A stretch of 50,130 nucleotides of DNA from a virus: positions 1-50,130 of the IMG/VR virus record IMGVR_UViG_3300045789_000719. One strand, given 5' to 3'. Below the pieces are notes generated by a model, which was not told the DNA's origin, searched no databases, and worked only from the letters and a program-made list of their open reading frames with translations. How positions within the stretch are numbered: position 1 is the stretch's first letter; each line of letters starts with the position of its first letter. The position numbers and the translations under genes are program-made. Of the stretch, positions 2,252 through 50,045 are shown in pieces.

Positions 2252-5207
2252 CCTCCAACATACTGGAAACCAGCCTTCTCAGTTCAACAGGCCCGACCGG
2301 TTTCTCAAGATAGGGACGCCCGGAATTCTCCAGAAATCGTTCCGCTTCCTTACTCAACGTATCGCCAGTAATAAATCCGATTTTACGAACAACCTCTGGC
2401 CGTTCTTTTTTTGTTGCTTCAAACAAGCCTTTTCCGTCGAGGCCCGGCATATTTAAATCACTCAGCACCAAAGCATATTCTTCTTGGCGCAAACACTCTA
2501 ACGCTTCGACACCGTTAAAGGCCGCGTGTACTTCAAAGCCATCTCGCTCGAGCATTTCTTTCAAAAGATCCGCCACGTCCCGTTCATCATCGACCACCAG
2601 AACGCGTTGATTTAATGACGCGGTCTCGGTTGGCTCGGGATCCACTAAATCTGGTTCTTCAATCCTTTTTACCGGCAGGCGAACAACAAATTTAGTGCCC
2701 TCTCCCAAAACCGAGTCAACGAAAATACGCCCGCCATGTGACTCCATGATACGATGGCAAATCGCAAGACCAATCCCCGTTCCCTGCCCGACTTCTTTTG
2801 TTGTGAAAAATGGCTCAAAAATTCGGGCGCGGAGTTTCTCCTGAATTCCGGGACCATTATCGGCGACAATGACGAAAACGTCTTTTCGTTTCGCATCATA
2901 CCCGGAAGAAATAGAAATCGTGCCGCCGTCATTGGCGCTCAAAGCTTGTTCGGCGTTTATGATCAAATTTACGATGACTTGCGTAATCTGATCAATATCA
3001 GCAAGGACAACAGGCAGTCCGTCTTGTAAGTTTACTTTTATCTGCACCTTACCCTGAGTCACGGAATAATTGGTTACGTCTACCGCTGTCTCGACGACAA
3101 GGTTCATATCAACCTTCTGCATATCGGCTGGTTTTTGACGGGCCATCGCAAGAAAAGTTTTTATGATTTTAGCGCATCGTTGAGCCGCTGTACTGATCGT
3201 CGCTACGCGCCGGCTGCTTGCAGTATCCGATAACTCTTCCTGCAACATCAGAGCATGACCGACAATAATAGAGAGCGGGTTATTCAGTTCATGGGCAACC
3301 CCTGCCAGAAGTTCGCCCAGAGCGGACATTTTTTCACTCTGAAATAAAATATCTCTCTGTGTTGAAAGCTCCTGCTCTAATGCCAGTTCATCGGTGAGGT
3401 CCCGAATATTAGAAACAATCACTTCCTCACCCTTGAAATCAATAACCCGGCATGAAACTGAGGCCCCGAATGCCTCCCCAGCTGCATTCTTCATTTGAAA
3501 GCGATGGTTTTTGAGTTGTCTGGATTTCAACAATTTAAGGCGATATTTCTCCAATGCCTCCAGATCTAAAAATGCTTCAGGGGAATAACTGATATTTCCA
3601 AGTAATGCGGTTGTTTCCGGACTTTTAAATAGCAGTTTTCCATCTGATACCCGCGACATCAATATCGGAACAGGGCACGCCTCTAAAACACGCCTTAGAA
3701 TCTCGTCTGCTGCCCGTTGCTCTTCTTCCATCTGTTTTTGAAGGGATACATCAAGCCGGGTAATGACAAATCCTCCCTCAGAGGTAGGGCTGTTTGACGT
3801 TGAGTACCAGGCACCATCTTCTTCTTTGATTTCCCATCGTCCCCGGGCGGGAATACCCTCTTTGCGCAGGCGAATGGTATCGCGATATTCCTGCAAATTC
3901 GGATCTTCCGGGCGAACGGGGCTTCGGGTCAAAATTTCATCATAGTGAACGCCTGGTACAATGATGTCGCTAAACGCATGATTTGATTTTAGATACAGCT
4001 CATTACAGGTAACCAGTCGCTGGTCCTTATCAAACAGGGCAAACCCCTCGTCAAGGCTCTGTACAGCATCCGTCAATCGCTCTGCTGCCCGCGAAATCTC
4101 TGCCTGTGCTTCAACAAGATCCGATAAATCAACCGTACTTGAAACGATCACATCATCGCCGCGATATTCAATCAGCCTTGCGGATACTGACGCCGGAAAA
4201 CTTGTGCCGTCTTCAGCAACGCAATCCACCCTAAAATCCTCAATCGCACCAAACGGCAACAAGTCAGTCAAAAAATCAGCATGACTTGCCGCTTCCATGA
4301 AATGTTCCCGCGTTGATTTGGTCATACCAAACATGTCGCGCGCTGCAGGAGACCGGTAGATGATCCCACCGTCATCAATACGCGACATAAGAATACTGGC
4401 CGGACAGGCTTCAAGCACTTTGTTCACAAGCTCATCCGCTTCGCCTTTTAAGACTTCTGCTTCCTTCAGGCTTGTTATATCTGTCCGGGTCACCACAAAA
4501 CCGCCCAGTTTGGTCGCATGTACAGAAACCGAAAAAACCTTGCCATCGGTATGTTTAAGTTCAAATGCCTGAATGAATTCTTCGGCATTATTCAGTCGAG
4601 CGCTGACCCATTCCGTTTCCCTTCCAACGGCGTCAGCATAAATACCCCGCCGCGCTGACTCGCGCATGAGTATTTCCCAATTGATGCCAGGTTCAAGTAA
4701 ATCAGAGACCCCAGCATTCATTTCACGATATTGACTATTGCACATGACCAAATTACCCTCTTCATCGTAAAGGGCAAAGCCTTCAGACAGGGCCTCAATC
4801 GCATCCGCGAGAACCCGTCTCCCATGATTGAGTTGCTGATGTTGATCGTTAAAATCTGTGGCGATAAAACTGATACTTTCCTCAGAAGACACGGCCGCGG
4901 ACAACAGCTTCCAATTTTCGTCAACCGTCATAATTTGAATTGGGGGTGTATTGGGAAGTGACCAGCGCTTAATGAATTGCGATATTTCAGAGTCAGTAGC
5001 TTCGAATTTCAGTTGATCTGCATACGATACCTGATCAAGAAAAGCGCTCAACAGAAGATCCTGTGTGGCGAGGGACCCGTCATTGCTAACCAGATCCTCA
5101 AAATCGCCACTACAAAAAAGGAGCCGCCCGTCCCTATCGAAAGTCGCCATCGACGTTGCGGGGCGCGCCATTTGTTCTATGACTGGCTTCATCTTCTTTT
5201 TACTCAT
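2229..5207 (-). CDS. Multi-PAS hybrid sensor histidine kinase
   Basis: A 992-residue cytoplasmic kinase with no obvious membrane segment. The N-terminal half holds about five PAS-type modules (roughly residues 15-115, 130-250, 260-360, 375-490, 505-600). HisKA follows with phospho-acceptor H639 in G-V-A-H-E-L-N-N-P, then the HATPase domain with N-box (N-L-I-I-N-A-E), D-N-G-P-G and G-T-G-I-G-L. A C-terminal receiver carries D917 in L-S-D-L-N-M-P-G. It should sense a soluble signal and pass phosphate to its own receiver and to the downstream OmpR-type regulator. PAS modules 2-3 and 4-5 resemble each other pairwise, suggesting an internal duplication. Confidence 0.94.
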   Translation of the reverse strand: MSKKKMKPVIEQMARPATSMATFDRDGRLLFCSGDFEDLVSNDGSLATQDLLLSAFLDQVSYADQLKFEATDSEISQFIKRWSLPNTPPIQIMTVDENWKLLSAAVSSEESISFIATDFNDQHQQLNHGRRVLADAIEALSEGFALYDEEGNLVMCNSQYREMNAGVSDLLEPGINWEILMRESARRGIYADAVGRETEWVSARLNNAEEFIQAFELKHTDGKVFSVSVHATKLGGFVVTRTDITSLKEAEVLKGEADELVNKVLEACPASILMSRIDDGGIIYRSPAARDMFGMTKSTREHFMEAASHADFLTDLLPFGAIEDFRVDCVAEDGTSFPASVSARLIEYRGDDVIVSSTVDLSDLVEAQAEISRAAERLTDAVQSLDEGFALFDKDQRLVTCNELYLKSNHAFSDIIVPGVHYDEILTRSPVRPEDPNLQEYRDTIRLRKEGIPARGRWEIKEEDGAWYSTSNSPTSEGGFVITRLDVSLQKQMEEEQRAADEILRRVLEACPVPILMSRVSDGKLLFKSPETTALLGNISYSPEAFLDLEALEKYRLKLLKSRQLKNHRFQMKNAAGEAFGASVSCRVIDFKGEEVIVSNIRDLTDELALEQELSTQRDILFQSEKMSALGELLAGVAHELNNPLSIIVGHALMLQEELSDTASSRRVATISTAAQRCAKIIKTFLAMARQKPADMQKVDMNLVVETAVDVTNYSVTQGKVQIKVNLQDGLPVVLADIDQITQVIVNLIINAEQALSANDGGTISISSGYDAKRKDVFVIVADNGPGIQEKLRARIFEPFFTTKEVGQGTGIGLAICHRIMESHGGRIFVDSVLGEGTKFVVRLPVKRIEEPDLVDPEPTETASLNQRVLVVDDERDVADLLKEMLERDGFEVHAAFNGVEALECLRQEEYALVLSDLNMPGLDGKGLFEATKKERPEVVRKIGFITGDTLSKEAERFLENSGRPYLEKPVGPVELRRLVSSMLEVEANEQG

Positions 5208-21509: not shown

Positions 21510-21876
21510 AAAATTCCTCACATTGTGCTTAATCCTTCCTCTACTTGCCGCCTGTGCAGGTGCCATCCCCGGCAATCAGCAGGGATATGCCGGCATCAAC
21601 CGGGCCGAGATCGAATTTGATGAGGCGGGAAAACCCGAGTACGCGCTGATTGTTGGCGGCAAGGAAAATGACAGCGTTTCTCTCAACGTAAAAACGCCCG
21701 ACGGGCTTGAGGTTCAATACACCGCGAGCGGATCCAAAGCCTTTGATGGTCAAGCCGTGAGGGGCGCTGTTGAACAGGCCATCTCCGGCGATGTGAGAGA
21801 CGCTGCGCCTGGCATTATTGAAAACGTGATGGACGCCCTTAAAGGCGTATGGGGGCCGCTGAATGTCGCTCCCTAG
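21502..21876 (+). CDS. Small phage lipoprotein (possible spanin-type)
   Basis: A 124-residue lipoprotein starting at GTG 21502 (GGAGATCCAAA just before), overlapping the endolysin gene by 8 bases. The signal peptide L-K-K-F-L-T-L-C-L-I-L-P-L-L-A-A-C ends in a lipobox with the lipidated cysteine at residue 17. The mature part is beta-rich and soluble. Its place directly after the endolysin suggests a job in outer-membrane disruption, but it does not look like a typical o-spanin (no proline-rich stretch). Confidence 0.8.
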   Translation: MLKKFLTLCLILPLLAACAGAIPGNQQGYAGINRAEIEFDEAGKPEYALIVGGKENDSVSLNVKTPDGLEVQYTASGSKAFDGQAVRGAVEQAISGDVRDAAPGIIENVMDALKGVWGPLNVAP

Positions 21877-22675
21877 CGCCTTGGAAAATGGGAGCATTGA
21901 GCTGGATATATCTGCCGCGCGATTTCTAGCTCAAGCTTCCCAATTCTCTTACAAACCGCCTCACATAGCGCAGCAACTGTATTTTATACTCGGCGCAAAA
22001 CGTGTGTGCTCAATTGAGCGCCTCAACCATTTTGCATACGCGGTGTGTTTTCCAAAGTTTATAGTCATCGCCTTCCGCGGTACAGAAAAGGATTATGAAG
22101 ATATCCTCACTGATCTGGATTTCGAGCTTGTTCGATATCTGGATCAAAAAGACAGCTATGTGCATAAAGGCTTTTACAAAGCGGCAAAGCTGTTAAATGC
22201 CGAGATCGGAAACTTGGTCAAACAGGAAGATTGGTGCAATCGCCCCATCTATTTTACCGGTCATTCCCTCGGCGGTGCTCTCGCTCAATTATGCGCACTT
22301 AAATCAGAGGATTACTATTATCAGATCCCGGCTGTCTACTCCTACGGAGCGCCACGGATTGGCAACCAGAACATGGCTGACTTAATCAGCTATCAAATAA
22401 TCCACTTCCGATTTGTGAACGGTGCCGACATCGTGCCGGCCTTGCCGCTTTACAGTATGGGCTACCAGCATGCTCAAACGCATGAAGTCTATTTCTCCCG
22501 ACATGGTGAGTTATGGAAGGATCCAAACTGGTTTAAGCGCTCCTATGACCAACTTATGGACAGCGCCCGTGGCTTTGTGTTGGACGGCTTCAAAATCAAA
22601 TTGCCCGTTAGACGTTTCACGCGTCATCGAATTTCTGAATATCGCGATCGCATAAAGGCTGCATTAAATGGCTGA
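21863..22675 (+). CDS. Class 3 lipase in the lysis block
   Basis: A 270-residue alpha/beta hydrolase of the Lipase_3 family: oxyanion motif A-F-R-G-T near residue 75, nucleophile S135 in T-G-H-S-L-G-G-A-L-A, Y-G-A-P-R-I-G-N near 160, catalytic aspartate in N-G-A-D-I-V-P near 193 and a candidate histidine in R-H-R-I-S-E-Y-R near the C-terminus. No signal peptide is visible. It overlaps the lipoprotein gene by 14 bases and the zinc-finger gene by 8, so it belongs to the lysis transcript. It may attack membrane lipids during lysis. Confidence 0.9.
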   Translation: MSLPSALENGSIELDISAARFLAQASQFSYKPPHIAQQLYFILGAKRVCSIERLNHFAYAVCFPKFIVIAFRGTEKDYEDILTDLDFELVRYLDQKDSYVHKGFYKAAKLLNAEIGNLVKQEDWCNRPIYFTGHSLGGALAQLCALKSEDYYYQIPAVYSYGAPRIGNQNMADLISYQIIHFRFVNGADIVPALPLYSMGYQHAQTHEVYFSRHGELWKDPNWFKRSYDQLMDSARGFVLDGFKIKLPVRRFTRHRISEYRDRIKAALNG

Positions 22676-48254: not shown

Positions 48255-48590
48255 ATGGATCAATGCCCGTATTGCGGACAGTCGGAGCCTGTTGATCCGG
48301 TTGAAGATCTTTATACACTAGATGAAAACTCTAGGACTTTGCGTGTGGGTGGCCAAAAGCGACGATTTTCACCGAAGCGGTGGAAGATAGTAAAGAAGTT
48401 GGCAGCAGCCAGTCCGGACTTTGTTAATAAAGACGCGCTCATGACCTTACTTTACAGCGATTGCGCAGATCCGCCTTTTGATACAATTATTGCAAATCAT
48501 ATATGTCACATCCGCAACCGTCTGGAAGGTACCGATATGAAAATCGAAAATCATTGGGGTGGAGACTGGCGACTAATAAAGAAAGATTGA
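48255..48590 (+). CDS. Zinc-ribbon/winged-helix regulator
   Basis: A 111-residue protein. It begins with a C-P-Y-C-G knuckle (only one cysteine pair is visible) and continues with an OmpR-type winged helix: R-R-F-S-P-K-R-W-K-I-V-K-K-L, V-N-K-D-A-L-M-T-L-L-Y, I-I-A-N-H-I-C-H-I-R-N-R-L, and a final W-G-G-D-W-R-L. There is no receiver domain. Placed after the spikes and before com, it could control the right-end module. AGGAGGAT precedes the ATG. Confidence 0.8.
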   Translation: MDQCPYCGQSEPVDPVEDLYTLDENSRTLRVGGQKRRFSPKRWKIVKKLAAASPDFVNKDALMTLLYSDCADPPFDTIIANHICHIRNRLEGTDMKIENHWGGDWRLIKKD

Positions 48591-48863: not shown

Positions 48864-48926
48864 CCCGAATCCCTTTACATAGAACGCCAAGAGCGTCCTG
48901 GACCGCACAAGCGAAAAAGGAAAACA

Positions 48927-49790
48927 ATGTGGCTTTACATACCCAAAACGGCCTCGCACTCTGCGCAGGTGTCGGAGGTCTCGAGCTCGGCCTCCACATC
49001 GCAGAACCCAACTATCGAACTGTTTGTTACGTCGAGCAAGAAACTCATGCAGCGGCCACAATCGTGGCCAGGATGGAAGACAAGGCCTTGGATCAAGCTC
49101 CTATCTGGTCCGACCTTAAAACCTTCGACCCTGAACCTTGGATTGGAAAAGTATCTATCCTCTCTGCCGGTTATCCCTGTCAACCATTCAGTGTCCTTGG
49201 AAAACGAAAAGGAACAGATGATCCAAGACACCTCTGGCCATATATCGCCAAAATTACCGAAAAGATCCGTCCAGAATGGCTTTTCCTTGAAAACGTCCAG
49301 GGGCATCTTGATATCGGATTTAATGAAGTCATCCGAAGCCTTCAAGAGCTGGACTTTGCAGTTGAAGCGGGAGTGTTCACAGCGTTTGAAGTTGGCGCGA
49401 GCCACGAGAGACGGCGATTATTCATTGTGGCCCACTCCAACCGCTGCGGCGAGCGGCAATCTTCCCGTTCTTCACTGGGGGAAGAAAGGTCTCACAATGA
49501 AAAAGCCGGAAACCTTCAGGCACAGCATAAACACTGCAGCTCAGTCGTGGACGTTAATGAGATCAATAAATCCGGAACTGAAGATCTCTTCGCACCTTCT
49601 CCCGGTGATCTTAAAGCCTGGCAAGAGCTCCTCAGAAGAAACCCTGATTATGAACCCGGTGTTTGGCGAAATGCTAATGGGATGGCCGAAGGGATGGACA
49701 GATCCAAATCAGTCGGTAACGGAGTTTGCAGTTTGGCTGCAGCGTATGCGTGGAGAACTCTTAAAGCTCGATTTAAAGACACTTAACTGA
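48927..49790 (+). CDS. Overlapping 287-codon frame inside the methyltransferase gene
   Basis: This frame starts at ATG 48927 (AAAAGGAAAACA upstream), 2 bases before the methyltransferase start, and ends 4 bases after its stop, without interruption. Its product is basic and includes R-L-K-L-A-R-A-T, S-L-W-P-T-P-T-A-A-A-S-G, M-N-P-V-F-G-E-M-L-M-G-W-P-K-G-W-T and W-L-Q-R-M-R-G-E-L. I recall W-P-T-P-T and L-M-G-W-P-x-G-W-T as motifs of phage proteins found with DNA methylases, from memory only. It may be a real overprinted gene or a by-product of the first frame's codon pattern. Confidence 0.45.
   Translation: MWLYIPKTASHSAQVSEVSSSASTSQNPTIELFVTSSKKLMQRPQSWPGWKTRPWIKLLSGPTLKPSTLNLGLEKYLSSLPVIPVNHSVSLENEKEQMIQDTSGHISPKLPKRSVQNGFSLKTSRGILISDLMKSSEAFKSWTLQLKRECSQRLKLARATRDGDYSLWPTPTAAASGNLPVLHWGKKGLTMKKPETFRHSINTAAQSWTLMRSINPELKISSHLLPVILKPGKSSSEETLIMNPVFGEMLMGWPKGWTDPNQSVTEFAVWLQRMRGELLKLDLKTLN
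48929..49786 (+). CDS. C5 cytosine-specific DNA methyltransferase
   Basis: A 285-residue enzyme that should methylate cytosine in phage (and host) DNA, protecting against restriction. GTG 48929 start. Motif I is L-C-A-G-V-G-G-L-E-L-G; the catalytic cysteine is C84 in G-Y-P-C-Q-P-F-S; E121-N-V is motif VI; E-R-R-R-L-F is motif VIII; the C-terminal S-V-G-N-G-V-C-S-L-A-A-A-Y-A is motif X. The target-recognition part (about 175-225) is short. It stands where Mu has mom. The same bases are open in a second frame (next entry). Confidence 0.93.
   Translation: MALHTQNGLALCAGVGGLELGLHIAEPNYRTVCYVEQETHAAATIVARMEDKALDQAPIWSDLKTFDPEPWIGKVSILSAGYPCQPFSVLGKRKGTDDPRHLWPYIAKITEKIRPEWLFLENVQGHLDIGFNEVIRSLQELDFAVEAGVFTAFEVGASHERRRLFIVAHSNRCGERQSSRSSLGEERSHNEKAGNLQAQHKHCSSVVDVNEINKSGTEDLFAPSPGDLKAWQELLRRNPDYEPGVWRNANGMAEGMDRSKSVGNGVCSLAAAYAWRTLKARFKDT

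Positions 49791-49968: not shown

Positions 49969-50045
<77 letters not shown>

Follow-up and report, generated by a model that had tools for sequence, protein, structure and literature searches.

In the two-polypeptide C5 methyltransferases M.EcoHK31I and M.EaeI, the β-subunit is encoded in another reading frame that overlaps the gene for the α-subunit. M.EcoHK31I is a naturally split enzyme (PMC3439449), in which the larger chain contains motifs I-VIII and X together with the predicted target-recognition domain (TRD), and the smaller chain contains motif IX (PMC3404938). M.AquI is split in the variable region after motif VIII, and its smaller chain consists of the distal variable region and motifs IX-X (PMC3404938). 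The methylase genes of actinobacteriophages can also contain a hidden HNH endonuclease of the ShiLan type, which is a mobile element inserted in the third frame (PMC11855218). Beyond the papers on split enzymes and the ShiLan type, no work on overlapping methylase frames was found in the literature searched, which lay largely outside the subscription journals.

Here, we analyzed a 0.86-kb gene in a viral record from IMG/VR (IMGVR_UViG_3300045789_000719, positions 1 to 50,130; this whole stretch of 50,130 nucleotides is called the window). Its two co-extensive frames very probably code for the two subunits of a single C5-cytosine methyltransferase. The α-subunit (frame B) would supply AdoMet binding and catalysis through motifs I-VIII and X, and the β-subunit (frame A, the +1 frame) would supply the target-recognition region and motif IX. 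Compared by published description, the gene resembles M.EcoHK31I in that frame B contains motifs I-VIII and X and frame A contains motif IX. It differs from M.EcoHK31I in that the TRD-like region is located in the frame of the small chain, where the stretch between motifs VIII and IX evolves in frame A; its homologue in single-chain enzymes is their in-frame variable region. It is also a phage gene, with full-length co-extension, twin starts, Com and a phage-wide distribution. The split of M.AquI has counterparts in gp81/gp80 of Mycobacterium phage Melvin and in three loci of the family (L098, L100 and L124), whereas the window keeps motif X on the catalytic chain and its two genes are co-extensive. 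The single-chain enzymes of the Gordonia phages Jabberwocky (gp4) and Rabbitrun (gp78) have a homologous catalytic domain and TRD-IX segment, but are encoded wholly in one frame. As in the ShiLan type, a phage methylase gene would yield a further product from another frame, but frame A appears to be part of the methylase itself and not a mobile insertion. Finally, a Com gene directly 5' of a DNA-modification gene is also found in the com-mom operon of Mu, from which the window differs in that a C5 methyltransferase replaces Mom and the target is dual-coded. The two-subunit principle is thus known, while the full-length co-extension, the twin starts, the B-A-B mosaic and the wide distribution in phages look new.

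The two reading frames of the window

The sequence-only reading had described two co-extensive open frames of about 286 codons, which was confirmed, with 2 nt between the starts and 4 nt between the stops (Table 1). It had also ascribed all C5 motifs to frame B, which did not hold. The PF00145 match covers residues 10-193 of frame B, equivalent to positions 5-182 of the 324 in the Pfam profile, or motif I to just past motif VIII, and HhaI structures in the PDB match frame B no further than residue 171. These matches end near motif VIII and thus place motifs I-VIII in frame B, which contains the catalytic PCQ and ENV of a C5-cytosine DNA methyltransferase. In the relatives, the PF00145 match of frame B ends at about position 160-169 of 324. 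Motif X (SVGNGV) was recognized in frame B both by eye and in the alignment. The TRD and motif IX, sought through the PF00145 and HhaI matches, were not found in frame B of the window; they do not share a polypeptide with the catalytic motifs, and the homologous segment is located in frame A. The PHROG family phrog_1008, which is matched by frame A, carries the label "DNA methyltransferase".

Table 1. Positions of the features in and near the dual-coded gene, and of the loci with checked annotation (columns: feature, position, strand, support)
com, Mu-like Com zinc-ribbon protein, 48 aa	48717..48863	+	PF10122 2.7e-12; phrog_6417 "translational regulator" 1.4e-15
AAAAAGGA, candidate ribosome-binding site common to both starts	48914..48921	+	sequence; spacing
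ATGTG twin start, the ATG of frame A 2 nt before the GTG of frame B	48927..48931	+	sequence; starts of relatives
Frame A, putative β-subunit, +1 frame; ATG, 287 aa	48927..49790	+	phrog_1008 7.1e-13; phrog_27243 2.3e-11; family statistics
Frame B, putative α-subunit with the catalytic domain of a C5 methyltransferase (motifs I-VIII and X); GTG, 285 aa	48929..49786	+	PF00145 3.9e-33 (residues 10-193); phrog_363 1.2e-54
Motifs I to VIII, frame B residues 9-172; PCQ 49175-49183, ENV 49289-49297	48953..49444	+	frame-B evolution in relatives
WPTPT and variable TRD-like region, frame A residues 165-237	49419..49637	+	frame-A evolution at this region in relatives
Motif IX-like LIMNPVFGEMLMGWPKGWT, frame A residues 240-258	49644..49700	+	profile comparisons
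Motif X KSVGNGVCSLAAAYAWRTL, frame B	49709..49765	+	alignment; frame-B evolution in relatives
Annotation-checked loci (Alfacinha1, phPA-G, Toothless, K1H)	L002 3001-4134; L367 842-1570; L043; L044		

Stop codons and selection in the two frames

Taken alone, the open frame A of the window is weak evidence for coding: it has no stops, and synonymous shuffles predict 2.0 (p = 0.085). The family set consisted of 200 distinct homologous loci, most of which were collected through the methyltransferase frame B only, and the expected number of stops was obtained by permuting synonymous codons within each gene. Over these loci, the +1 frame contained 29 stops versus 486 expected, while the +2 frame contained 1905 versus 2053 expected. 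The deficit was present in both halves of the gene, with 14 stops versus about 380 expected in the N-terminal half, and most low-GC loci were significant singly (typically 0 stops seen and 4-11 expected, p about 0.005). Single-chain C5 methyltransferases served as the negative control: 15 of them, encoded in the same bacterial genomes, had 157 stops in the +1 frame versus 155 expected, whereas 15 family members beside them had one versus 15 expected. At four loci (L050, L052, L071 and L110), frame B contains at least seven stops between motifs VIII and X and frame A is open for 474-549 codons, which shows that the openness of frame A is not merely a consequence of frame B.

These controlled statistics argue strongly that frame A is a gene and that dual coding from one stretch of DNA, as the sequence-only reading had proposed, is real in the family. 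That reading had taken homologous loci with a second frame riddled with stops to speak against its proposal, and the second frames are not riddled. Phages and prophages with the arrangement number well over a hundred. It is hardly credible that frame A is an untranslated by-product, left open by the composition or codon choice of the methyltransferase family. A by-product would agree with the two stops expected in the window and with the few expected in the high-GC relatives, but it is at odds with the deficit in the family, where the +2 frame and the single-chain methyltransferases behave as expected, and with the loci at which frame A is open and frame B is not. Nor does it agree with a codon-position signature that flips to frame A, or with the homology of frame A to an in-frame domain, both of which are described below.

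With frame A at +1, its wobble bases coincide with position 1 of the frame B codons, and the variation at positions 1 and 3 of frame B was compared in 87 disjoint pairs. Over motifs I-VIII, position 3 of frame B varied more than position 1 in all 87 pairs. The order was reversed in the stretch between motifs VIII and IX, where position 1 varied more than position 3 in 66 pairs versus 21 (p=1.4e-6), and at motif IX (45:14), while position 3 was again the more variable at motif X (66:10). In 58 genes of equal length, sharp frame switches were located at codons ~161 and ~341; after motif VIII, ~140-180 codons evolve in frame A, followed by motif X in frame B. The amino acids of frame A were more alike than expected from the synonymous freedom of frame B, 2.2-2.3-fold at motif IX and 1.5-1.7-fold at residues ~46-81 and 130-153. 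The analysis of synonymous constraint in each frame, which the sequence-only reading had called for, detected selection on frame A in the VIII-IX stretch and at motif IX. The N-terminal half of the β-subunit and the linker of the α-subunit would be dictated mainly by the other frame, and be kept open but freer to vary. The nearest relatives of the window gene are ~57% identical or less, and its variable region aligns poorly; the comparisons are carried by the relatives, and the claim for the window therefore rests on its membership of the family.

The passage of selection from frame B to frame A right after motif VIII would also be expected from a programmed +1 frameshift, by which frame B would be read to motif VIII and the ribosome would then shift into frame A, giving one fused chain of motifs I-VIII, TRD and motif IX. 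At L098, L100 and L124, where motif X is in frame A as well, one such shift would give a complete enzyme, but most loci have motif X in frame B and would require a second, backward shift. A frameshift needs the second frame solely 3' of the shift, yet stops are also avoided in the N-terminal half of frame A, and the frameshift fits worse because an open N-terminal half would be pointless. Moreover, frame A has its own start codon beside that of frame B, and in a second class of 36 partially overlapping loci the frame A ORF opens internally at codons 24-74, most often 51, far 5' of the switch. We consider a frameshift unlikely, and two separately initiated subunits the better reading.

Homology and variants of frame A

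In the Gordonia phages Jabberwocky and Rabbitrun, one chain contains motifs I-VIII, a variable segment that in Jabberwocky includes PTP repeats, an L-x-x-x-F-x-E-W-M-M-like stretch and motif X. In Mycobacterium phage Melvin, a gene of its own, gp80, encodes the TRD-IX segment; it follows gp81 in the +1 frame, and its product is 45% identical to the single-chain Jabberwocky gp4 (4e-33). The profile of frame A aligned with the in-frame TRD-IX segment over 118 columns (hhalign, 96.7%, E 4.5e-10), and more weakly with the classical motif IX of ordinary single-chain C5 methyltransferases (P 0.026). The alignment to the Gordonia and Melvin segment points strongly to frame A as the TRD-motif IX half; judged from these profiles, the homology to what single-chain phage C5 methyltransferases have in frame falls in its C-terminal half. 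The single-chain genes contain +1 stops at 7 versus 8.8 expected (Jabberwocky gp4) and 5 versus 4.9 expected (Rabbitrun gp78).

The homology agrees with the methylase partner envisaged by the sequence-only reading, and leaves its alternative of an unrelated, anti-restriction protein without support. Two of the motifs that it linked to methylase-associated phage proteins, WPTPTA and LMGWPKGWT, fall in the TRD-IX segment. An unrelated accessory protein, such as an anti-restriction factor or a regulator overprinted on the methylase, is in our judgment very improbable. A Pfam search with frame A matched no family and a PDB sequence search detected no relative of known function, as might be expected of such a protein, but frame A is homologous to the TRD-IX segment of both single-chain and split phage methylases, and neither the TRD nor motif IX was found in frame B by the PF00145 and HhaI matches. 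The sole PDB sequence match of the frame A profile, the MS2 coat protein (E 0.005), covers a short stretch and was dismissed as chance. The AlphaFold model of frame A alone was poor (pLDDT 60.5, pTM 0.28), and a Foldseek search with it gave no fold match. A search with the frame A motif alone gave 120 loci, of which 109 had the methylase N-terminal domain in frame A-1 and two in the third frame, while nine run off the contig end; a homologue of frame A that stands alone was found at none of the 120, nor was a single-chain version bearing the exact frame A motif in IMG/VR. The series from single chain to split, to overlapped split with motif X in frame A (L098, L100, L124), and to the interleaved gene of the window suggests an evolutionary route, which may have run in either direction.

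Several loci depart from the common arrangement. The methylase is in three pieces at L050, L052, L071 and L110, where frame B stops after motif VIII, frame A is intact and motif X is in a separate short frame-B segment. At L098, L100 (L262), L124 and L243, the presence of motif X in frame A corresponds to an AquI-like split with extensive overlap. L024 contains an insertion between motifs IX and X (about 2130-2560), which by eye has an HNH-like, Cys/His-rich product in frame A and an open frame B, and resembles the ShiLan element (PMC11855218). At L028, the dual-coded gene is interrupted by a transposase-like ORF (about 2970-4200; IS110-like by eye). The deposited annotations also vary: for Acidovorax phage Alfacinha1 and Pseudomonas phage phPA-G, frame A is annotated and the catalytic frame omitted, and for Paenibacillus phage Toothless and E. 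coli phage K1H, both nested frames are annotated as methyltransferases.

Translation, neighbouring genes and significance

At 115 of the 116 loci with a MWLY-type start of frame A, a frame B start codon is located at most 8 nt away, with the pattern ATGnATG in 85; the twin starts are usually 4 nt apart in the relatives and 2 nt apart in the window. The twin starts, with ATGTG behind AAAAAGGA in the window, favour alternative initiation at one ribosome-binding site, from which both chains would be produced and then assemble into the active enzyme. For the partially overlapping class, the AAT of the ENV motif was considered as an internal start of the β-subunit, but the codon is AAT in 19 loci versus AAC in 17, which is not compelling. 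A hairpin that hides the twin start, as in Mu mom, was also rejected, as positions 48850-48975 fold no better than shuffles (z 0.70).

The window contains a Mu-like transposable myophage with a Mu transposase, a gpT-like capsid protein and a contractile tail sheath. The com gene adjoins the dual-coded methylase on its 5' side in this Mu-like prophage, and Com is a possible translational regulator of the α/β pair. Across the Mu-like clade, a Com-like zinc-ribbon ORF is located just 5' of the methylase in the window and ~22 related loci (L049, L135, L140, L144 and others), and at several of these loci the com frame continues across the starts of frames A and B, so that all three frames look open there. 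A tRNA-Met gene is located past the methylase gene at 49969-50045. An ORF of 111 aa at 48255-48590 has a CxxC start and a C-terminal domain that resembles the DNA-binding domains of CtrA/OmpR response regulators, and a class 3 lipase-like gene (PF01764, 1.9e-27) is located within the phage region at 21863-22675.

Taken over the family, these genes probably represent a widespread class of phage enzymes with two co-extensive subunit frames, twin starts and B-A-B purifying selection, which would rank among the longest conserved genes of dsDNA phages that code twice on the same strand; in some lineages the gene is in three pieces, with a separate ORF for motif X. In restricting hosts, the modification would shield the DNA of the phage. 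Same-strand dual coding that is both long and conserved is rare among DNA phages, and in this case a function can be assigned to both products. This would explain phage ORFs labelled "hypothetical" or "DNA methyltransferase", such as the matches of phrog_1008 and phrog_27243, as the recognition halves of methylases; half of such an enzyme is lost when a pipeline annotates only one frame. The locus also offers a direct test of how a ribosome divides its initiation between two starts that lie 2-4 nt from each other, and of the way in which a single chain could evolve into an interleaved enzyme.
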